Source: Propionibacteriaceae bacterium (lineage in GTDB: Bacteria > Actinomycetota > Actinomycetes > Propionibacteriales > Propionibacteriaceae). Taken from it: DNA of 11,000 nt. The stretch is from positions 1 to 11,000 of the forward strand of contig JAISCH010000029.1 of NCBI GenBank assembly GCA_031265725.1, read 5' to 3'. Each line of letters starts with the position of its first letter. Position 1 is the stretch's first letter. The notes beneath the pieces are model-generated. The model was given only the letters and a program-made list of their open reading frames with translations, was not told the DNA's origin and made no database searches. The position numbers were made by a program, and so were the translations under genes. Of the stretch, positions 719 to 9,934 are shown one piece after another.

Positions 719-1777
719 TCAGTAGTAATAGGGGAAATTCGACCAGTCTGGTGGGCGCTTCTCTAGGAAGGCGTCGCGGCCTTCGACGGCCTCGTCGGTC
801 ATATAGGCCAGGCGGGTGGTCTCGCCGGCGAAAACCTGCTGCCCGATCAGGCCATCGTCAATGGCGTTGAAAGCGAACTTCAGCATCCGCTGGGCGGTGG
901 GCGACTTCCCACAAATCTTGGCTGCCCATCCCAGCCCGGTGGTCTCCAAGTCTGCGTGCGGGACGACCGCGTTCACCATGCCCATCCGATAGGCGTCTTG
1001 CGCGGAGTAGGTGTCACCGAGGAAGAAAATCTCCCGGGCGAATTTCTGCCCCACCTGACGGGCCAGATAGGCCGAGCCGAAACCGGCGTCGAAGGAGCCG
1101 ACATCGGCGTCGGTCTGCTTGAAACGAGCGTGTTCCAGCGAGGCCAGGCTGAGGTCGCAGACCACATGGAGGGAGTGGCCGCCTCCTGCCGCCCACCCGT
1201 TCACCAGCGCGATCACGACTTTCGGCATGAAGCGGATCAACCGCTGCACTTCCAGAATGTGCAAATGCCCCAGCGCCGCCCGCTGGCTGGTGCTGACCTC
1301 ACCGGTACTGACCGCACTAGTGCCAGTATCGGCGGATGGTTGACTCCTAGTGGCCCGGGCCACGTCATCCTCGGCCACCGCGCCGTTATCGTATGGTTGG
1401 TCTACAGTGGCACGGGCCGTGTCATGCTCAGCACGCGCACGAGCCGCGCCGTCCTCAGCCAACGCGCCGGCCTCGTACTGATAGCCGGAACGACCTCGAA
1501 TCCGTTGATCGCCACCCGAGCAGAACGCCCAGCCGCCGTCTTTGCTGGACGGCCCATTGCCGGTCAGCAGTACGCAGCCGATCTCCGCGCTGGTCCGGGC
1601 ATGGTCGAGTGCGAGGTAAAGCTCGTCAACCGTGTGCGGACGGAAGGCATTGCGCACTTCGGGACGATTGAAGGCGATCCGTACGCAGGGAACGTCTTTG
1701 GCCCGATGGTAACTGATGTCCGTGAAGGCGAAGCCGGGGACGTTCTCCCAACGGTTAGGATCAAACGGGTTCTCCAT
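719..1777 (-). CDS. menB: 1,4-dihydroxy-2-naphthoyl-CoA synthase with enlarged active-site loop
   Basis: MenB is a crotonase-fold enzyme that closes the ring of o-succinylbenzoyl-CoA to give 1,4-dihydroxy-2-naphthoyl-CoA in menaquinone synthesis. Visible motifs, numbered from the ATG at 1777: GGDQRIRGRSGYQY (88-101), GWAAGGGHSLHVVCDL (194-209), KQTDADVGSFD (220-230) and the C-terminal KRPPDWSNFPYYY. D223, S228 and D230 match residues assigned to catalysis in the Mycobacterium tuberculosis enzyme. Aspartate rather than glycine at the D223 position is typical of the bicarbonate-independent class (family knowledge). At 352 residues it is longer than M. tuberculosis MenB (~314), because the loop at about 102-171 contains degenerate repeats. 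AGGAGG lies at 1789-1784, which suits the second of two adjacent ATGs (1777, spacing 6) better than the first (1780, spacing 3). The start overlaps the end of marR, so translation is probably coupled. Confidence 0.95.
   Translation of the reverse strand: MENPFDPNRWENVPGFAFTDISYHRAKDVPCVRIAFNRPEVRNAFRPHTVDELYLALDHARTSAEIGCVLLTGNGPSSKDGGWAFCSGGDQRIRGRSGYQYEAGALAEDGAARARAEHDTARATVDQPYDNGAVAEDDVARATRSQPSADTGTSAVSTGEVSTSQRAALGHLHILEVQRLIRFMPKVVIALVNGWAAGGGHSLHVVCDLSLASLEHARFKQTDADVGSFDAGFGSAYLARQVGQKFAREIFFLGDTYSAQDAYRMGMVNAVVPHADLETTGLGWAAKICGKSPTAQRMLKFAFNAIDDGLIGQQVFAGETTRLAYMTDEAVEGRDAFLEKRPPDWSNFPYYY
1322..1486. repeat. Degenerate in-frame tandem repeat inside menB
   Basis: Three diverged units lie head to tail. 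Unit A (1322-1381, 60 bp) and unit B (1382-1438, 57 bp) align along their length with one 3-bp gap. A partial unit C (1439-1486) aligns with the end of A and the start of B. Unit lengths are multiples of three, so the menB frame is kept. In the protein this appears as repeated ARAT..QP and (A)EDxxARA segments within residues 102-150. The alignment was made by eye and no repeat score was calculated. Confidence 0.65.
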
Positions 1778-2249
1778 CATCGGCCTCCTGGCTCACCCTG
1801 GCCACTGCGGCCAACACCACTTCGGTGCTCCGTTTCAGCAACTCCAAATCGGCTATATCCAGCACCGAGACGACGCGGGCGAGCACATTTCCGAACAGCG
1901 ACCCGATGGCAGCGGTAAATTCCTGGCCCAACGGACTGGGGAAAATTCGCCGTATCCGTCGGTCCTTCTTGTCGTCGATCCGTTCCACCATGCCTTTGTC
2001 GACCAGCCGGTCCACCAAACCACTGGCGGTGGGCGCGCTCACCCCGAGCCGCCGACTCAATTCTTGGATGGACATGCCCGGATTGGAATACAGTCGTTCC
2101 ATCACCCGGATTTGCTGCAAAGTTAAGTCATGGCATTCCACTATCTTGCTGACCAGCTCCTCGGCATAGACCCGCAGCTCATCTTGCAGCGCAAAAACCT
2201 CCGCAATCAACGGATCGCGCTCATCGCCCATCAAGGGCACTGCTTTCAT
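1761..2249 (-). CDS. MarR-family winged-helix transcriptional regulator
   Basis: This 162-residue protein has the length and layout of a MarR dimer that binds palindromic DNA and usually releases it on contact with a small, often aromatic, ligand or an oxidant. An N-terminal dimerisation helix (about 10-40) is followed by LTLQQIRVMERL (43-54), the helix-turn-helix SIQELSRRLGVSAPTASGLV with recognition helix at about 68-85, and a charged wing DDKKDRRIRRIF (about 91-102). C-terminal helices complete the dimer interface. The ATG at 2249 is preceded by AGAAAGG. The gene overlaps menB by 17-20 bp and is divergent from the RND pump gene, the usual arrangement for a local MarR repressor of an efflux pump. 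A possible promoter has -10 TATACT at 2302-2297, inside a palindrome, which suggests autorepression. The ligand cannot be read from the sequence. Confidence 0.93.
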   Translation of the reverse strand: MKAVPLMGDERDPLIAEVFALQDELRVYAEELVSKIVECHDLTLQQIRVMERLYSNPGMSIQELSRRLGVSAPTASGLVDRLVDKGMVERIDDKKDRRIRRIFPSPLGQEFTAAIGSLFGNVLARVVSVLDIADLELLKRSTEVVLAAVARVSQEADDGEPV

Positions 2250-2391: not shown

Positions 2392-2486
2392 CGGTGCGCC
2401 GTACGCTCAATGCTGCGATGCACGTTTCCTTTGGAATCACTAAGCTAACTGATGCTACTGGGGTAGCTGCCAGAAGAGAGAAACTC

Positions 2487-5400
2487 ATGAGTCGCCTCAC
2501 TCGCGTGAGTCTTGCTTATCGAACAGTGATCATTTTGCTTGGATTGCTCGCGGTGATCGCTGGCATCTACTGCACGACCGCACTCAAGCAAGAGTTGATC
2601 CCATCGATGGAATTGCCCAGGGGAACGGTGATATCGGTCTACCCCGGCGCCAGCCCGGAAGTGGTCGAAGCGGAAGTCTCCAAACCCATTGAGGCGGCCA
2701 TCCAAGGCATCACCGGGATAAAACGAGTCACCTCGTCCAGTTCATCCAATGTGTCCCAGGTGAGCGTGCAGTGGGACTACGGCGCCGACTCCGAGGAAAT
2801 CGTCAGTGAGGTCACCCGGGCGGTCGACGGGCTGACCCTGCCTGAAAACGTTAACCCACGGGTGATGACCGGCAGCATTGACGATCTGCCGGTGCTCATC
2901 GTCTCAGCGGCCAGTGACGAAGAATTGGACGTTTTCTCGAAGAAGATCAACGAGATCGTTACGCCCGAATTAAGAGGGATCGCGGGTGTCCGTGATATTG
3001 AGGTCAGCGGCGAGGAGACCAAGGAGATTTCTGTCGTTCTCGACCAGGATGAGGTGCAGAAGAAAGGCGTCGATCTAACAGTTATCTCCTCGATGTTCAT
3101 GGCGAACGGGATGGCGATTCCAGCCGGTACCATCCACTCCAGCAGCGGTGACGTTGATGTCCAAGTTGGGGCGAACTTCTCCTCAATTGAGGAAATCCAA
3201 AACCTGCTCATCATGACTGCGGACGACCCAGTGCGGCTGGGCGATATCGCCACCGTCGCAGAGGTCAAGGCCGAGGTGACCTCGATCTCCCGGGTGAACG
3301 GCCGTCCCTCGCTCACCCTGTCGATCACCAAGACCCTGGACGGGAATACTGTCTCCACCTCGCACGGCTTGCGCGACAAACTCGATTCGCTGAGCAAAGA
3401 ATTGGGCAACGGCACTGAATTCAAAGTCATCTTCGACCAGTCGCCATTCATCGAGGACTCGATCCATGACCTCTCCATGGAGGGCGGGATCGGCCTGGTG
3501 ATGGCGATCATCGTCATCATGATCTTCCTGTGGAGCGTGCGGCCCACTCTGATCACCGCGATTTCCATCCCGCTATCGCTTTTGATCGCGTTGGTCGGCC
3601 TCTTCGTCGGGGGAAATTCGCTGAACATCCTCACCCTGGGCGCATTGACCGTCGCTATCGGACGAGTAGTGGACGATTCGATCGTCATCATCGAAAATAT
3701 TAAACGACATCAATCGCTCGGCCATGTCGGCCGCAGCGCAATCATCGGCGCGGTGAAAGAGGTCGCTGGAGCGGTGACCAGTTCCACCTTGACCACTGTC
3801 GCGGTATTCCTGCCGATGGGCCTGGTCAGTGGCCAGGTGGGAGAGATGTTCCGTCCCTTCGCCGTCACCGTGGCCATCGCGCTGATCGCCTCGCTGATCG
3901 TTTCGATGACCGTCGTCCCGGTGTTGGCGAGTTGGTTCATGCGGGTCAAAACTTCAGTGCCAATGCAGCCGGAAGCTCCAGATGGCGCATTGCCGCTTGA
4001 GATTCCACAGACTTTAACTTGGCTCCAGCGTGGATACTTACCGGTACTGAATTGGGCGCTCACCCACCGGCTGATCACCATCGTGATCTCGATCGTCCTC
4101 TGCGGCGGCACGGTAGCGCTTGCACCCAACCTCAAGACCGATTTCCTCGGTGATATGGGGCAGAACATGGTGCAAATCAGCATGAAATTCCCGAACGGCA
4201 CCAGCCTGGAAGACACCGATGCCGCAGCCAAAAAGGTGGAAGAGCTGTTGGCCAGAGAGCCGAACATTGAGGCGTATCAGACGACCTCTGGTTCCGGGTC
4301 GGGCCTGATGAGCATGATGTCAGGTTCGTCCGGCAGCGGCAGCCAGGCGTCGATCTACGTGATCATGGAAGAGGGCGCTGAATCGAAGCCCTTGGTGGAA
4401 AGACTGCGCAGCGAAACCGCTGAAATGACTGGGCTGGGGGAAATCCAAATCGGCACCACTGGCACGACAGGGGCGTCTTCCCAGGTAGTGCTTTACGTGG
4501 AAGCCACCAATCCAGACAACCTTGGTGCCGGATCGGAAATCGTAACCCAGATGGTCGAAGGCCTGCCCGGATTGGTCAATGCCAACTCCGACCTCACTGC
4601 GGCCCAGCCGATGCTTAAGATCGATCTGAAAGAGGAGATCGCAGCCAAGAAGGGCTACACCAAGGCCACTGTGGGTCAGGCCATCCAGCGCGCCGTCCGT
4701 GGCCAGCAACTCGGCACGTTGACCCAAGGGGACAGCACTATCGACGTATATCTGAAATCGCAGCAGCCGGTGAAGACTGTTGCGGAATTGCGTGACGCAC
4801 TGCTGCCGGTGACCCAGCAGATGACGGCTCAGGTCCGGCTCGATGCCATTGACAAGGTGACGGAGAAATCTGAGAAATTCGCCGACGACAATAAGAAGAA
4901 GGCCACTGACGCTTATGAAAAGCAGGTGAAACAGCTCAACGAAGCACGTTCGGAGGCGAAGAAGAATATTCCTGATTTGCAGCGGGACTTCGAAGAAGCA
5001 TACGCGGAAATAATGATCCTGAAAGATAAGCTCGAAATAGCGGAAATCACTCCAGTAGGTCCAGACAATCCGGCTGGATCCGTGACAGCGCAAATGCTGA
5101 CTAAAGCGCTGGCCGCCAAGATGCAGGATATGTCTGGGATAACGATGCGCCTAACTCAAGCGAAAGCCTCCGTCTCGCAGATAGACGCGCAGCTTTCCGC
5201 TCAGAAAAAACAGCGCGAAGCCACCTTAGAGGCTCAAGACGAACAAGAGGCTTTGCAGGAGGAGAGCAAGGACGCCCAGAAAGCCAAGGCCAAGCCGCTC
5301 AAGCTCAGCGCGATAGCCGAGGTGAGCGAAGTCGAGTCACCGGCCAAGATCACCCGGGCGGACGGAGTGCGGGCGGCCACCATCACCGCCTCCACCGAAT

Positions 5401-6251
5401 CGAATAATCTGAGCGCGATCAACAGCCAACTGGAAGAGGCCATCGCCAAGCTCAATCTTCCCGACGGGGTGAGCGTCCGCATCGGCGGCATTTCCGAGCA
5501 GCAGGCGGAAGCCTTCCAGCAATTGGGCTTGGCAATGCTCATCGCTATCGGCGTGGTGTACCTGGTGATGGTGGCCACCTTCGGATCGCTGTCCCAGCCA
5601 CTGATCCTGCTGGTGTCCATCCCCTTCGCGGCTACTGGCGCGCTTGGGTTGAGCCTGCTCACCGACATCCCGATCGGGGTGCCCTCACTGATCGGCATGT
5701 TGATGTTGATCGGCATCGTGGTGACGAATGCGATTGTGCTCATCGACCTGATAAATCAATACCGGAAACGTGGGGAGGACGTTGCCTCATCGGTTATGTA
5801 CGGCGCTGCTCTGCGCGTCCGTCCGATTGTGATGACGGCGTTGGCGACCATCTTCGCCCTGCTGCCAATGGGATTGGGGCTGACTGGTGGCAGTGTGTTC
5901 ATCTCCAAACCGCTGGCAATCGTGGTGATGGGCGGGCTGATCTCGTCAACGCTGCTGACGCTGATCTTGGTGCCGGTGATTTACGATCTATTCGAGTCCT
6001 GGCGGCAACGACGTATCGACCGGAGGGCGGCTGCCGCAGCCGGTGTCCCCGCGATAGCTGCCTATACCGCTGCCGCCGATGCCATCGTTCCCGCCGAGGT
6101 CCCCGCGCTTGACGAAGCCACTGCCGCTGCCTACGCGATTACAGCCGACGCGACTGAAACCAATGCCATCGCCACTGCCGCCACTGCCGCTGCTGTTGAT
6201 GACGCCAACGACGATCCGTTCTCCGCGCTGTTTGTCCCGCAGAACAGGTGA
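2487..6251 (+). CDS. RND-family (HAE1/SwrC-like) efflux permease with coiled-coil hairpin insert
   Basis: This 1254-residue proton-driven exporter belongs to the AcrB/SwrC superfamily, built as a duplicated unit of six membrane helices plus a large extracytoplasmic loop. TM1 is at about 12-31; the first porter region (PSMELPRGTVISVYPGASPEVVE) follows; TM2-6 span about 335-490. TM4 holds GRVVDDSIVIIENI with the proton-relay pair D396/D397. TM10 has GIVVTNAIVLID; T1080 occupies the place of AcrB K940. The second extracytoplasmic loop contains an extra ~155 residues (about 783-938) predicted as a helical hairpin. The tail after TM12 is about 75 residues, alanine-rich and probably cytoplasmic. 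The chosen ATG (2487) follows GAGAG and begins MSRLTRVSLAYR, a normal RND N-terminus; the frame extends upstream to a GTG at 2394, but those 31 residues look unlike coding sequence. No adaptor or outer-membrane partner gene is near. Substrate unknown. Confidence 0.92.
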   Translation: MSRLTRVSLAYRTVIILLGLLAVIAGIYCTTALKQELIPSMELPRGTVISVYPGASPEVVEAEVSKPIEAAIQGITGIKRVTSSSSSNVSQVSVQWDYGADSEEIVSEVTRAVDGLTLPENVNPRVMTGSIDDLPVLIVSAASDEELDVFSKKINEIVTPELRGIAGVRDIEVSGEETKEISVVLDQDEVQKKGVDLTVISSMFMANGMAIPAGTIHSSSGDVDVQVGANFSSIEEIQNLLIMTADDPVRLGDIATVAEVKAEVTSISRVNGRPSLTLSITKTLDGNTVSTSHGLRDKLDSLSKELGNGTEFKVIFDQSPFIEDSIHDLSMEGGIGLVMAIIVIMIFLWSVRPTLITAISIPLSLLIALVGLFVGGNSLNILTLGALTVAIGRVVDDSIVIIENIKRHQSLGHVGRSAIIGAVKEVAGAVTSSTLTTVAVFLPMGLVSGQVGEMFRPFAVTVAIALIASLIVSMTVVPVLASWFMRVKTSVPMQPEAPDGALPLEIPQTLTWLQRGYLPVLNWALTHRLITIVISIVLCGGTVALAPNLKTDFLGDMGQNMVQISMKFPNGTSLEDTDAAAKKVEELLAREPNIEAYQTTSGSGSGLMSMMSGSSGSGSQASIYVIMEEGAESKPLVERLRSETAEMTGLGEIQIGTTGTTGASSQVVLYVEATNPDNLGAGSEIVTQMVEGLPGLVNANSDLTAAQPMLKIDLKEEIAAKKGYTKATVGQAIQRAVRGQQLGTLTQGDSTIDVYLKSQQPVKTVAELRDALLPVTQQMTAQVRLDAIDKVTEKSEKFADDNKKKATDAYEKQVKQLNEARSEAKKNIPDLQRDFEEAYAEIMILKDKLEIAEITPVGPDNPAGSVTAQMLTKALAAKMQDMSGITMRLTQAKASVSQIDAQLSAQKKQREATLEAQDEQEALQEESKDAQKAKAKPLKLSAIAEVSEVESPAKITRADGVRAATITASTESNNLSAINSQLEEAIAKLNLPDGVSVRIGGISEQQAEAFQQLGLAMLIAIGVVYLVMVATFGSLSQPLILLVSIPFAATGALGLSLLTDIPIGVPSLIGMLMLIGIVVTNAIVLIDLINQYRKRGEDVASSVMYGAALRVRPIVMTALATIFALLPMGLGLTGGSVFISKPLAIVVMGGLISSTLLTLILVPVIYDLFESWRQRRIDRRAAAAAGVPAIAAYTAAADAIVPAEVPALDEATAAAYAITADATETNAIATAATAAAVDDANDDPFSALFVPQNR
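4833..5330 (+). other. Predicted coiled-coil hairpin insert and its flanking repeated strands in the RND pump
   Basis: Residues 783-948 of the pump. A first strand-like motif VRLDAIDKVTE (783-793) leads into a charged, Lys/Glu/Gln/Ala-rich helix up to about 853, interrupted by P829. A Pro/Gly turn TPVGPDNPAGS (855-865) follows, then a second long helix to about 936. The chain re-enters the porter fold with a second copy of the strand motif, LKLSAIAEVSE (938-948), followed by the normal ESPAKITRADGVRAATI. Typical family members have only a short hairpin here. The equivalent place in the first half (MTADDPVRLGDIA) is short and ordinary. Confidence 0.7.
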
Positions 6252-6305: not shown

Positions 6306-6785
6306 ATGACAACGATGTTCATAATCGGTGCGATCGCACTGGTGGTCGCTATTGTTTCGCTCGCCCTGGATGGGACGTTGGACCTGCCCGACTCGGAATG
6401 GCTGTCCACCACCGGGGTATTTTCCGGGGTGGCCATCTTCTGCTTTGTCGCCGGGATCATGCAGGGTTACGGTGCGCCGATGCCAGCTTGGATCATCGCC
6501 GGTGCGATCTCCGCACTGTTAGTGACCGGCGGGACGAGTTTCCTCATCTTCAAATTGCGCAAATCCGGTGCCCAATCCTCGACTCCGGTCCAAAAACTGC
6601 TCGGCACCACCGGCTCGGTCACTGTCCCTATCGAGCCGGGCGGCTTCGGCCAAATCAACCTCAGCGTGAGCGGGGAAACCCTGCAAATGAACGCAGTATC
6701 CGATGAGGCTATAGCTTTTAACCAGTCAATAAGGGTAGTTGGCGTCGAATCTCCCACCTGTGTGCGGGTGGAGAATCTGCGCTGA
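6306..6785 (+). CDS. NfeD/YuaF-like membrane protein with C-terminal OB-fold
   Basis: This 159-residue protein matches the short NfeD class (like Bacillus YuaF) that partners flotillins in membrane microdomains and lacks the protease domain of long NfeD. Three hydrophobic segments lie at about 3-21, 37-56 and 60-82. A small beta-rich domain (about 96-159) starts LLGTTGSVTVPIEPGGFGQI and ends VVGVESPTCVRVENL, the usual OB-fold pattern of the family. The ATG at 6306 is preceded by CGGAG. It starts 54 bp after the pump gene and ends 11 bp before the flotillin gene, so co-translation with flotillin is very likely and co-transcription with the pump is possible. No strong separate promoter was seen in 6252-6305. 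Confidence 0.85.
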   Translation: MTTMFIIGAIALVVAIVSLALDGTLDLPDSEWLSTTGVFSGVAIFCFVAGIMQGYGAPMPAWIIAGAISALLVTGGTSFLIFKLRKSGAQSSTPVQKLLGTTGSVTVPIEPGGFGQINLSVSGETLQMNAVSDEAIAFNQSIRVVGVESPTCVRVENLR

Positions 6786-6796
6786 GAAAGGAAATC

Positions 6797-8242
6797 ATGT
6801 TCGACTTCATCTTCAGTAATCCGGCGACCGGCGTTTTCGGCATCGTCATTGTCGTTGCCCTTATTATCTGGCTGATCGCCTCCCGCTACCGGGTGGCCAA
6901 ACCGAACGAGGCATTCGTGATCACCGGCCCCGGCGGCAATGACCGCAAAGCCATTGAGGCCGGCACGGGAGTCTCGACCGCTGGCCAGCGAGTCGTCCGT
7001 GGTGGCGGCGCGTTCATCGTCCCGCTGATTCAGCAGTTGTCCGTGGTGGACCTGTCCAGCCACCGTATCGAGGTCGCCGTCGACGGCGCGTACAACCAAA
7101 AGGGCATCAAGCTCAACGCCAAGGGCGTGGCCATCGTCAAAGTCGGCGGTACCGACGAGGCGATCCGGGCGGCCGCGCAACGTTTCGTGGCCCAGCAGGA
7201 GTCGATTGAATACTTCACCAAAGAGGTGCTGACCGGCAGCCTGCGTTCCATCATCGGTTCGATGGACGTGGACAAGATCGTCTCCGACCGGGCCGAATTT
7301 GCCAAGCAGGTCGCGGAGACCTCCGAGTCGTCACTGTCCGGGCAGGGCCTGATCATTGACACTTTCCAAATCCAGGAGATTCAAGACGCCGAAGACGGCA
7401 GCTACTTGCGCGACCTGGGGCGTCCGGAGCAGGCGTTGATCCGGCAGCGCGCCGAAATCGCTGAGGCGGGCAGCCGCAAAGCCGCCGAGCAGGCCAAGGC
7501 CCAAGCGGACCAGGCGATAGCCGAGGCCCAGCGCGACCTCGCCCTGAAGCGGGCGGAAATCCAGTCGATCACCGACCGGGCCGCCGCCGAGGCCGCCAAC
7601 GCCGGGCCGTTGGAGCAGGCCAACCAGCAACGCATGTTGGTCACCGAGCAGCAGAAGGTCGCCGAGCAAGACGCCACCCTGCGGGAGAAGCAGCTCGCCG
7701 CCGAAGTCCGCAAGCCAGCCGACGCCCGGCGCTACCAGGTCGAGACCGAAGCCGCCGCCCAGCAACAGGCGACGATCCTCGCCGCCGATGCGGAGAAGGC
7801 CCGCCGCGTGGCGTTGGCCGACGCCATGCGCGCCGAGGGCGAAGCCCAAGCCGCCGCCACCCTGGCCAAAGGTGAGGCCGAGGCCGAGGTGCTGGACAAG
7901 AAAGCCGCCGCCTACCGCAACTACAACGACGCCGCCGTCCTCGAAATGGCCTTCCGGGCGCTCCCGGAAATGGCCAAGGAGATCGCCACCCCAATGTCGG
8001 CCATCGACAAGCTCACCGTGATCTCCACCGATGGCGCATCCGACCTCTCCAAAAAGGTAGCCGCCACCACCGCCGAAGTCCCCGCCCTACTAAAAGACCT
8101 AGCCGGAATCGACCTAGTGGAATTGCTCCAAGGCTTCACCAGCAGCCGTACCCAGCCCGCCAAGCCCTTGCCCGCCGCCAAACCCCCCAAGGCCGCAGAG
8201 CCCAAAGCGGCCCCCACTCCAAAAGAGCCAAAGCCCAACTAG
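6797..8242 (+). CDS. Flotillin-like SPFH-domain membrane scaffold protein
   Basis: Flotillins are membrane-anchored scaffolds that oligomerise and organise ordered membrane patches; they affect membrane fluidity and the assembly of membrane complexes. The 481 residues show an N-terminal membrane segment (about 12-28), an SPFH/PHB domain (about 30-205) with GGGAFIVPLIQQLSVVDL (69-86), and a long Ala/Glu/Gln/Lys coiled coil (about 205-400) with AEAEVL-like repeats. A conserved C-terminal region (about 390-445) follows. The last ~35 residues are a Pro/Lys/Ala tail beginning near SSRTQPAKPL, which is not a core part of the family. The ATG at 6797 follows AAAGGAAATC. It directly follows the NfeD-like gene, its standard partner. 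The gene converges on the PIN toxin gene, with 37 bp between them and no clear terminator hairpin. Confidence 0.93.
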   Translation: MFDFIFSNPATGVFGIVIVVALIIWLIASRYRVAKPNEAFVITGPGGNDRKAIEAGTGVSTAGQRVVRGGGAFIVPLIQQLSVVDLSSHRIEVAVDGAYNQKGIKLNAKGVAIVKVGGTDEAIRAAAQRFVAQQESIEYFTKEVLTGSLRSIIGSMDVDKIVSDRAEFAKQVAETSESSLSGQGLIIDTFQIQEIQDAEDGSYLRDLGRPEQALIRQRAEIAEAGSRKAAEQAKAQADQAIAEAQRDLALKRAEIQSITDRAAAEAANAGPLEQANQQRMLVTEQQKVAEQDATLREKQLAAEVRKPADARRYQVETEAAAQQQATILAADAEKARRVALADAMRAEGEAQAAATLAKGEAEAEVLDKKAAAYRNYNDAAVLEMAFRALPEMAKEIATPMSAIDKLTVISTDGASDLSKKVAATTAEVPALLKDLAGIDLVELLQGFTSSRTQPAKPLPAAKPPKAAEPKAAPTPKEPKPN

Positions 8243-8279: not shown

Positions 8280-8699
8280 TCACCTCAACTCGAAAGGATC
8301 AAAGCAACTCACGTCGGCACCCTCGAAGTCTTTAGTGTTTCGCGTCACCAAGGCTAAGCCGTGAGTTATTGCGGTGGCCGCGATGAATGAATCCAGCCAC
8401 GGAAGGGTGCGTTTGGCCGGAAGACAGGCCCAAGCCTCAGCTATAGCAGGGGTCACATCAAGGATGCGCCCAGCGTATTGCGCCACCGTATCCGCAAGCC
8501 AGTGATTGAGTCTTACGGCTTTGGCCGTCGCTCTTTTCGCTTCCAGGAGCACGATACCGCGTCGCAACTCGGCTAACGTCAACACACTCAAGCAACACTG
8601 CTCAGCGGGCACAGACTCCAACCACGCTATGACAGTCGGGTTGGGCTGCGGCTTGCAGTTTTCAGAAACGACGTTTGTATCGATCAGATAGCTAGGCAT
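8280..8699 (-). CDS. vapC: PIN-domain toxin RNase, VapC/FitB-like
   Basis: VapC toxins are Mg-dependent ribonucleases held inactive by a co-expressed antitoxin. From the ATG at 8699 the protein has 139 residues, normal for the family. The acidic PIN residues are visible: D7 in YLIDTNVVSE, E44 in SVLTLAELRRGI, D103 in LPWLDSFIAATA, and the TRNTKDF motif (119-125) with D124. The KPQPNPTVIAWL and LTLAELRRGI segments resemble the FitB-like subgroup. The ATG lies one base after the antitoxin stop, so translation is coupled. An in-frame TTG at 8711 is an alternative start but would overlap the antitoxin. Target RNA unknown. Confidence 0.9.
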   Translation of the reverse strand: MPSYLIDTNVVSENCKPQPNPTVIAWLESVPAEQCCLSVLTLAELRRGIVLLEAKRATAKAVRLNHWLADTVAQYAGRILDVTPAIAEAWACLPAKRTLPWLDSFIAATAITHGLALVTRNTKDFEGADVSCFDPFELR

Positions 8700-8700
8700 C

Positions 8701-8991
8701 TCAGTCCGCAAAACTGAACTCGCGCCCGGAAGGATACAGCTTGCGCTCCGCGATCACTTGATCCAACACCACAGAAATCTCATCGTCATCGGCCTCGAAT
8801 TTTGGAAGCGCTCTTAGCGAGTCAGCGCGCCGATTCTGGTCCAACCCGCGCAATCTCCGATACTCGTCCATATCGATCACCACTGCGATTTCCGCACCGT
8901 GCTTGGTGATGATCTGGTCGCCTTCGCTGGCCACCTTACGCAACACCTCACTGAAACGTTGCTTCGCCTCTTGCACTTGCCAAGCCGCCAT
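8701..8991 (-). CDS. Phd/YefM-family antitoxin paired with the PIN toxin
   Basis: This 96-residue protein has the N-terminal Phd/YefM DNA-binding fold: WQVQEAKQRFSEVLRKVASEGDQ (4-26), then ITKHGAEIAVVIDMDEYRRLRG (28-49). The C-terminal half (about 50-96) is acidic and then aromatic/basic, and probably wraps the toxin. The ATG at 8991 is preceded by AGGG; a TTG one codon earlier is a weaker choice. The gene is directly upstream of the PIN toxin. The pair probably represses its own promoter through the palindrome at 9004-9021. Phd-type antitoxins pair with PIN toxins less famously than AbrB- or RHH-type ones, but the combination is known. Confidence 0.9.
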   Translation of the reverse strand: MAAWQVQEAKQRFSEVLRKVASEGDQIITKHGAEIAVVIDMDEYRRLRGLDQNRRADSLRALPKFEADDDEISVVLDQVIAERKLYPSGREFSFAD

Positions 8992-9003
8992 CAAACACCC
9001 TAA

Positions 9004-9091: not shown

Positions 9092-9592
9092 TTAGCTGGC
9101 TTGGTCTGCGGCGCGTTTAATGTCTTTGATGGAGATCAGTAGATGCATCGGGTCCGTGGGTGACTCGTAGAACTCGCTTTGCGCGAGGTAGAACGCCTTG
9201 GCTTGCTCATCGCGGCAATGAATCAACAACACGGCCGCGCCGATGCTGGAACTGAGCAGTACCGTCCGTTTGAAAGCATCCAGTAACAGTTTGCGGCCCA
9301 CACCCTGATTCTGGGCGCGGGAGTTCACCGCAAGCCTGGCCAACAGCACGCAGGGGACAGACGCAGGCCTAGCCTTGGCTAACTTTGGCGGGACGTCAGT
9401 CTTTCCGACTCCGCACATAGTGATCGAGTAGAAGCCAAGCACCGAACCGGGATCGTCCACCGCAACATAAGTGACTGCGTTATTGGCTTGTTGGTTCTCC
9501 CAGGCGAACCGGACAAACCAGTCGTCCAAATCAGCGGCACCGGAAACGAAACTCTCCAGGTCGTCACTCTTCGCCAGCTTGCGGACCAGCAC
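9092..9592 (-). CDS. GNAT acetyltransferase toxin (TacT/AtaT-like)
   Basis: Toxins of this group acetylate the amino group of charged aminoacyl-tRNAs and stop translation. The 166-residue reading from GTG (9592) begins VLVRKLAKSDDLESF, as expected, and continues with LDDWFVRFAWEN (22-33). The acetyl-CoA-binding motif Q94-N-Q-G97-V-G99 lies in SRAQNQGVGRKLL. The AFYLAQSEFYESP segment (133-145) has Y135 at the position expected for the catalytic tyrosine. The frame is open further upstream to 9730, but that part overlaps the antitoxin and looks non-coding, so GTG just after the antitoxin stop was chosen; GAGG lies nine bases before it. The pair is tightly coupled. Which tRNA is modified cannot be told. 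Confidence 0.88.
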   Translation of the reverse strand: MLVRKLAKSDDLESFVSGAADLDDWFVRFAWENQQANNAVTYVAVDDPGSVLGFYSITMCGVGKTDVPPKLAKARPASVPCVLLARLAVNSRAQNQGVGRKLLLDAFKRTVLLSSSIGAAVLLIHCRDEQAKAFYLAQSEFYESPTDPMHLLISIKDIKRAADQAS

Positions 9593-9593
9593 C

Positions 9594-9869
9594 TCACTGA
9601 TCCTCGGCGAATAGCCCGGCCAACTTGTCCACCGACGGTAGTGGAGTATCCGACAGCCGAAGGAACTCATCGAACTGCTCATCGGAGAGCGCAAACCATC
9701 TGCGATCCGCCAAGACCTGCTGCGCTTCAATCATCGCCGCATTCAGTACGAAATCAGACAAAGTGTGGTCAGTCACATCGGCGGCACGCTTCAATATCTG
9801 CTCCTGCCGAGCAGAAACACGCAGCCCGATACGACCAGCCTTCCGAGTAGGTGTCGCCAGCACAGTCAC
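9594..9869 (-). CDS. DUF1778 ribbon-helix-helix antitoxin of the GNAT toxin
   Basis: This 91-residue TacA/AtaR-like antitoxin binds DNA through an N-terminal ribbon-helix-helix and blocks the acetyl-CoA pocket of the toxin with its C-terminus. RIGLRVSARQEQILKRAAD (13-31) and the following LSDFVLNAAMIEAQQVL form the ribbon and helices. RRWFALSDEQFDEFLRLS (about 57-74) is the usual toxin-binding segment. A GTG start at 9869 is preferred because GGAGG lies five bases before it; the frame could extend to a GTG at 9905, and another GTG lies at 9863. The stop is separated from the toxin GTG by a single base. Confidence 0.88.
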   Translation of the reverse strand: MTVLATPTRKAGRIGLRVSARQEQILKRAADVTDHTLSDFVLNAAMIEAQQVLADRRWFALSDEQFDEFLRLSDTPLPSVDKLAGLFAEDQ

Positions 9870-9879
9870 TTCAACCTCC
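9870..9879 (-). promoter_or_regulatory. Ribosome binding site fixing the DUF1778 antitoxin start
   Basis: Minus strand GGAGGTTGAA: GGAGG at 9879-9875, then five bases to GTG at 9869. This decides among several in-frame GTG codons (9905, 9881, 9869, 9863). Confidence 0.7.
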
Positions 9880-9934
9880 ACAAACGATGTATGCCCATAG
9901 TACACACATTTTCCCCGTCACCGGCGTGGCCGCA

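Follow-up and report, generated by a model that had tools for sequence, protein, structure and literature searches.

An AcrB-type (HAE1) RND permease from a member of the Propionibacteriaceae carries a long insert at the tip of its C-terminal docking (DC) hairpin, and comparison with its relatives confirms this insert, at the level of sequence, as a predicted antiparallel coiled-coil hairpin of roughly 11 nm. The gene lies in an 11,000-nucleotide stretch of DNA, the whole of which is called the window here, and its features are collected in Table 1. In Gram-negative bacteria AcrB-type pumps are classic components of tripartite systems, and how they serve cells that lack an outer membrane is poorly understood. 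The conserved coil, placed at the point where other pumps of this type contact TolC, suggests a concrete, testable answer to the question of what HAE1 pumps do in monoderm bacteria.

Table 1. Features of the permease and of the adjoining regulator gene. Positions are those of the window; residues are counted from the GTG codon.
Feature	Position	Strand	Evidence
MarR-type regulator, divergent, 145 bp from the GTG start	1761..2249	-	Pfam MarR
AcrB-type (HAE1) RND permease, 1285 aa from GTG	2394..6251	+	PF00873, PDB matches, homologue alignment
Asp pair of TM4 (Asp427-Asp428), at the aligned position of the AcrB D407-D408 proton relay	3672..3677	+	97/97 aligned actinobacterial HAE1 sequences, query included
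DC docking-hairpin tip insert, residues 805-966, net +157 relative to AcrB	4806..5291	+	E. coli AcrB alignment
Predicted hairpin arm 1, residues 810-884	4821..5045	+	periodicity, conservation
Gln844 to Arg852, inferred polar layer (arm 1)	4923..4949	+	conservation
Turn, residues 885-897 (Pro890, Pro893); cysteine-pair region in relatives	5046..5084	+	
Predicted hairpin arm 2, residues 898-966	5085..5291	+	periodicity, conservation
Gln933 to Arg941, inferred polar layer (arm 2)	5190..5216	+	conservation

The permease and its docking-tip insert

The Pfam family PF00873 (ACR_tran) matches the permease with 680 bits against a cut-off of 28. By sequence, the best solved chain in a PDB search is MdtB, followed by CmeB, AcrB and other HAE1 pumps. 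The cut-off of the NCBIfam subfamily RND_permease_2 is missed (579 bits, with 1250 needed), and alignment with E. coli AcrB leaves extra residues at both ends. Met32 (2487), where the alignment starts for most homologues, is a likelier start than the GTG at 2394; the database copy of the same permease begins at residue 45. The position of AcrB Lys940, a relay residue of TM10, is occupied in the query by Thr1111 (window 5724-5726). Of 66 other actinobacterial HAE1 permeases, 58 also have threonine there, which makes it a trait of the group, and the proton relay in these permeases and the query may differ from that of AcrB.

The main alignment consists of the query and 119 of 123 homologues (clustered at 90% identity), the excluded sequences being the window's own protein and three short ones (P0005, P0010 and P0013). 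All 119 align with the insert, which rules out an assembly artefact or a one-off. The named genomes closest to that of the window go under the labels Propionibacteriaceae bacterium, Propionicimonas, Micropruina, Tessaracoccus and Arachnia. The insert falls between AcrB V791 and Q797, with an edge that varies by a few residues among alignments (789-797). We take AcrB 791-797, around D795, to be the tip of the DC hairpin. A preliminary description of this DNA had placed about 155 residues rich in Ala, Lys, Glu and Gln at the docking tip, and only in the second extracytoplasmic loop. The composition and the site agree with the AcrB alignment, the net excess is 157 residues, and the first extracytoplasmic loop has no insert in that alignment (-2 residues at the DN tip). 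The coordinates given there, 4833-5330, caught the right region and missed its edges, starting about 9 residues late and ending about 13 late. Its turn "near 860", numbered from Met32, is residue 891 from GTG and does lie in a turn-like motif, PVGPDNPAG (887-895).

Several features of the alignment point to two antiparallel helices. In the profile of 120 sequences, arm 1 has a hydropathy period near 3.6 that was matched by none of 2000 permutations, and the period of arm 2 was matched by 36 of 2000. For the query alone the numbers are 20 of 2000 for arm 1 and 257 of 2000 for arm 2, and the latter is not significant. With the heptad register assigned here, the hydrophobic core is confined to positions a and d and forms one seam; positions e and g are not hydrophobic. 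Proline is rare in the arms, occurring in 0, 5, 5 and 0 of the 120 sequences across the four arm segments.

The lengths of the arms vary together. Among the 72 relatives with cysteines at the tip, the arms measure 77 and 69 residues in 33 sequences and 70 and 62 in 15, the latter being shorter by seven residues (one heptad) in both arms. The covariation is strong (r = 0.91, reached in 0 of 5000 permutations, which ignore kinship). It is not universal: 16 of the 72 have arms of 81 and 69 residues, with four more in arm 1 alone, and in the distant relative L099 both basal arms are longer by 14 residues and the distal segments by 8 and 14. The remaining cysteine-bearing sequences have arms of 79 and 70 (six) or 77 and 68 residues (two). 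Arms of 65-70 residues had been expected from the query, and the 70-81 and 62-70 residues found in the 72 sequences fit that estimate. At about 73 residues per arm and 1.5 A per residue, the hairpin would be roughly 11 nm long.

Cysteines at the tip are present as a pair in 72 of the 120 sequences and absent from the other 48, which include the query; no sequence has a single one. In 62 of the 72 the pair represents the only cysteines of the protein, and in 52 of the 72 the spacing is C-x8-C. On one tree built from the rest of the protein, the presence of the pair requires 14 parsimony changes. A tip disulfide looks like the simple reading of this all-or-none pattern. The absence of tip cysteines from the query itself, and Pro860 in its distal arm 1 (it is among the five sequences with any proline in that segment), are points against a hairpin in this particular protein.

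Conservation is also structured along the arms. Gln844 is present in 120 of 120 sequences and Arg852 in 87, with Lys instead in 28; Gln933 and Arg941 are each kept in 118. Seven of eight distant relatives have Gln844 and seven have Arg852, and where a residue is present at the position Gln933 occurs in 7/7 and Arg941 in 4/7. The pairing sums are equal (844 + 941 = 852 + 933 = 1785) and centred on the proline turn at 890-893, as would be the case if Gln844-Arg941 and Arg852-Gln933 were paired in one register, an equality of sums that is not set against chance. Mean entropy is lowest in the basal arms (1.28 and 1.15), higher in the distal arms (1.91 and 1.72) and highest in the turn, the least conserved segment (2.1). 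The periodicity of the arms, their coupled lengths and the cysteine pair of relatives together bear out the coiled-coil hairpin of the preliminary description. A PDB search with the insert alone returned only fibritin, at E 0.94.

Occurrence of the insert and variation of docking tips

The insert is a trait of one clade. When the query was aligned with 96 other actinobacterial HAE1 sequences, 31 of the 97 showed an excess of over 60 residues at the DC tip, and all 31 belong to the window's GTDB family and to a single clade (support 0.977). Three short or wrong-frame pieces (L030, L031 and one ORF of L025) were excluded from this alignment; L030 also has the insert. Five aligned pumps of the same GTDB family (L033, L034, L036, L040 and L050) lack it. 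L094, from another family, is the sister of the clade; where the clade has the insert it carries a low-complexity loop of 39 residues. A separate loop of this kind, 55 residues long, occurs at the DC tip of L036.

The DN docking tip, which we take to be AcrB 254-255, is variable as well. Extras of at least 10 residues (11-83) occur there in 31 of the 66 actinobacterial HAE1 sequences without the coil and in none of the 31 of the coil clade. They are carried by L041-L049, L086-L091 and others; those whose sequence was inspected, which lie outside L041-L049, are of low complexity, with Gly, Ala, Pro, Ser or Thr in abundance. Taken together, the variation of both tips and the single insert clade indicate that these bacteria allow their docking tips to vary widely, and that in one clade the tip has become what is predicted to be an ordered hairpin.

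Wider searches place the insert in the same group. At E 1e-20, at least 111 of 393 genomes from the class gave HAE1 matches, and at E 1e-60 the same was true of 71 of 396 from the phylum; the two samples overlap. Among the matches listed from these genomes no DC insert of this size was seen outside the family, partial matches being uninformative; one split match (G760) was left unassigned. Two protein-database searches with the insert returned 13 and 5 proteins, and all eight with a taxon name are from Propionibacteriales. In a plasmid collection 628 records match the permease, none covering 80% of the query. The two taxonomies divide the hosts differently: NCBI lists Propionicimonas and Micropruina under Nocardioidaceae, and Tessaracoccus, Arachnia, Naumannella and Desertihabitans under Propionibacteriaceae, whereas GTDB puts all coil-bearing genomes in one family of Propionibacteriales. 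A link of the insert to envelope type, which had been raised as a possibility, is not supported; the insert follows one clade, and it is missing from other families as well as from the five pumps of the same GTDB family.

A different site of variation lies at AcrB ~508, where L094, L095, L037, L039 and others have 40-109 extra residues. By homology this is the cytoplasmic side of the protein, in the stretch that links TM6 to TM7.

Gene neighbourhood and role of the hairpin

A divergent MarR gene within 188 bp of the permease start is found in 14 of 22 neighbourhoods, or 14 of the 19 that bear the coil. A neighbour cluster (c7) considered as a partner of the pump was rejected, for it overlies the MarR gene and most likely represents a wrong-strand ORF. 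Directly downstream of the permease and on the same strand are genes for an NfeD-like protein (window 6306-6785) and a flotillin/SPFH protein (6797-8242), neither of which has a BLAST relative in the other 21 neighbourhoods. Elsewhere in the window, a PIN-domain gene with a small overlapping upstream ORF (8280-8711, 8701-8994) is type II toxin-antitoxin-like. A GNAT acetyltransferase gene is also accompanied by a small overlapping upstream ORF (9092-9730, 9594-9905), and we take this pair to resemble GNAT toxin-antitoxin systems. Upstream, an enoyl-CoA hydratase family protein (719-1780) with an internal low-complexity stretch of about 60 residues is, judging from its C-terminus, presumably a naphthoate synthase.

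The preliminary description had suggested that the coil could stand in for an adaptor or channel, and the genomes are consistent with this. A TolC-type outer-membrane efflux protein (OEP, PF02321) was found in 0 of 33 genomes (27 of the 32 known coil-bearing genomes and six without the coil), the window genome among them being an incomplete draft (59.7% complete). No adaptor beside the pump was detected by tblastn when seven adaptor sequences, five of them from Propionibacteriales (L182 was not used), were compared with the 22 neighbourhoods of 11-16.5 kb. An adaptor profile gave one weak match (E 1e-4), in a 1143-residue frame of L117 that is too long for an adaptor. RND-type adaptor matches do occur elsewhere in at least 29 of the 33 genomes, over the cut-off in at least 25. 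Among the matches listed, the adaptor nearest to the pump on the same contig is more than 230 kb away, and an adaptor may act in trans with the pump.

We see about an even chance that the permease works as an AcrB-like trimer whose docking-tip hairpins guide substrate outward from the membrane. It would be a proton-driven exporter of the AcrB type in which each DC hairpin tip is extended by the antiparallel coil, clamped in many relatives by the putative tip disulfide. Three hairpins would rise from the funnel mouth and pack at their conserved bases; the basal halves are the better conserved, so they are inferred to touch something, most likely each other at the mouth of the funnel. Jointly the hairpins would guide released substrate off the membrane surface into the wall zone, doing part of the job of adaptor and channel for a cell with a single membrane. 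The HAE1 arms contain 53-61% of the large hydrophobics of MmpL arms, which is enough for a hairpin and weak for a barrel; a hydrophobically packed six-helix barrel is not indicated, and the composition leans away from a hydrophobic, Met-lined helical barrel of the MmpL kind. Because hydrophobicity is modest and its seam limited to a/d, a looser three-legged chimney would be favoured over a tight tube, at least in the outer half.

Precedent for a transport role comes by analogy from the mycobacterial MmpL proteins. In MmpL5 the coil is 196 residues long, and efflux is lost when it is deleted (PMC12501195); its hairpins form a trimeric needle of 125 A by cryo-EM (PMC12346298), and oligomerisation of MmpL10 is described as driven by its coil (PMC12183618). 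Counting against an axial bundle is the coil of MmpL4, tilted about 60 degrees from the trimer axis in PMC12803245, which also mentions a conserved tip cysteine pair. The wall of Gram-positive cells is of a thickness that a hairpin of roughly 11 nm is not expected to cross. That the hairpin would reach through the wall is doubtful, and for MmpL5 itself the authors disagree: a modelled 13 nm tube with a tip disulfide is judged too short for a 22 nm periplasm (PMC12501195), and the needle is judged long enough for the outer membrane (PMC12346298). HAE1 pumps of monoderms may have acquired coil extensions on more than one occasion. Only tentatively do we put forward a bolder proposal, in which the three docking-tip hairpins would form one conduit, an independently evolved MmpL-like needle, and a single gene would replace permease, adaptor and channel; coil extensions in monoderms would then have appeared at least twice, at the docking tip in one Propionibacteriales clade and in the first loop in the Oscillospiraceae type.

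The same hairpins might instead stand apart, as independent two-helix struts that space or anchor the pump in the wall while substrate exits from an open funnel. The single a/d seam, the low share of large hydrophobics relative to MmpL and a tip clamp of the kind that suits a free-standing hairpin all favour such stalks, as does distal arm 1, which is basic on average (mean net charge +4.6). The charge ranges from -3 to +10, however, and is -2 in the query, so that this arm is not basic here, and the conservation of Gln, Arg, Lys and Asp in the basal halves, beyond the a/d core, suggests a further contact surface. We regard separate stalks as rather unlikely, and prefer hairpins that act together on the substrate.

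It is improbable that the hairpin serves instead as a platform for some partner in the wall or among secreted proteins, or for an adaptor acting in trans, much as the tips of AcrB bind TolC or AcrA. The adaptor-type matches noted above and a Brevibacillus HAE1 pump with an adjoining adaptor gene speak for docking, and the tip of MmpL5 has been proposed to meet an unknown partner (PMC12501195). Against it are the neighbourhoods, with nothing adaptor-like but the weak profile match in L117, and the poor conservation of the turn. Least probable by far is neutral expansion, in which a docking tip that need not contact TolC can absorb inserts and the coil is without function. The DN-tip extras of other actinobacterial pumps and the low-complexity DC loops of L036 and L094 are what such tolerance would produce; it is disfavoured by the one-heptad change in both arms, the all-or-none cysteine pair and, in 120 sequences, an invariant Gln844 with near-invariant Gln933 and Arg941.

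Comparison with other RND pumps

The query resembles the AcrB/MdtB-type HAE1 pumps of Gram-negative tripartite systems in its whole protein body, its aligned docking subdomains and the TM4 Asp pair. It differs from them in the 157-residue docking-tip insert and in the replacement of Lys940 by Thr, and from AcrAB-TolC systems in that the 33 genomes have no OEP and the 22 neighbourhoods no adaptor that could be found. With the Gram-positive HAE1 pumps (SwrC/YerP-like and others) it shares an AcrB-type permease in a monoderm, and the operon of a Brevibacillus HAE1 pump, like the query, has a MarR gene beside the pump. Two short Bacillota HAE1 pumps that were aligned have no DC insert, unlike the query, and a type from Oscillospiraceae is extended by 230 residues in its first loop and by 41 at the DC tip; L177 was not used in this alignment, and SwrC itself is not among the aligned sequences. 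Judged by titles and the beginnings of abstracts, the open-licence literature contains no report of a coil on a Gram-positive HAE1 pump.

A second kind of extension was observed in L050 (311-4261, - strand, contig G017:C11), from the window's genus. This protein represents a different HAE1 subfamily, in which the first loop is longer at AcrB 195-197 by 230-280 residues that look coiled-coil-like. In L050 the excess is 280 residues and contains a C-x10-C pair and helical-looking repeats; the genome is a draft and contamination is possible. L176, from Vescimonas fastidiosa (Clostridia, Oscillospiraceae), is 41% identical over nearly all of L050 and has 230 extra residues at AcrB 195-197, with no cysteine pair there.

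The design of a coiled-coil stalk is better known from mycobacterial MmpL proteins, another RND branch, and the analogy drawn to them in the preliminary description is supported. MmpL4/5/10 and the coil-bearing HAE1 pumps are alike in being RND permeases with a coil in the second extracytoplasmic loop, built of antiparallel arms of similar length. The hosts of the coil-bearing HAE1 pumps presumably have no mycomembrane, unlike those of MmpL. Tip cysteines number two in 30 of 30 MmpL proteins, spaced C-x5-C in all, and two in 72 of 120 HAE1 sequences, where the spacing is mostly C-x8-C; the query has none there. Large hydrophobics account for 33% and 34% of the MmpL arms and for 18% and 21% of the arms in the 72 cysteine-bearing HAE1 sequences. 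The former contain 6-7% Met and the latter less than 1%, with about 20% Ala. HAE1 pumps have a docking domain, and MmpL is described as lacking one (PMC12501195).

Profile searches separate the two branches. A profile of the HAE1 insert, built from 107 of the 120 inserts (those with the letters LPVT), found none of the 30 MmpL proteins, even with E values of up to 10 allowed. At E 1e-100 the window genome yields no match to TIGR00833, the MmpL branch, and the 20 NCBIfam families listed for the permease do not include it. A coil shared by descent with MmpL is rejected with caution on the profile result and the differences in tip spacing and composition, for coil sequences probably carry little signal of descent, and their composition weakens such a test. 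According to a review (PMC8277102), MmpL cluster I insertions likewise seem unrelated to those in RND funnel domains. Because tip spacing and composition differ, the HAE1 coil and the MmpL needle are read, with the same caution, as convergent. The two offer a natural contrast between a hairpin bundle as a conduit and as a strut.
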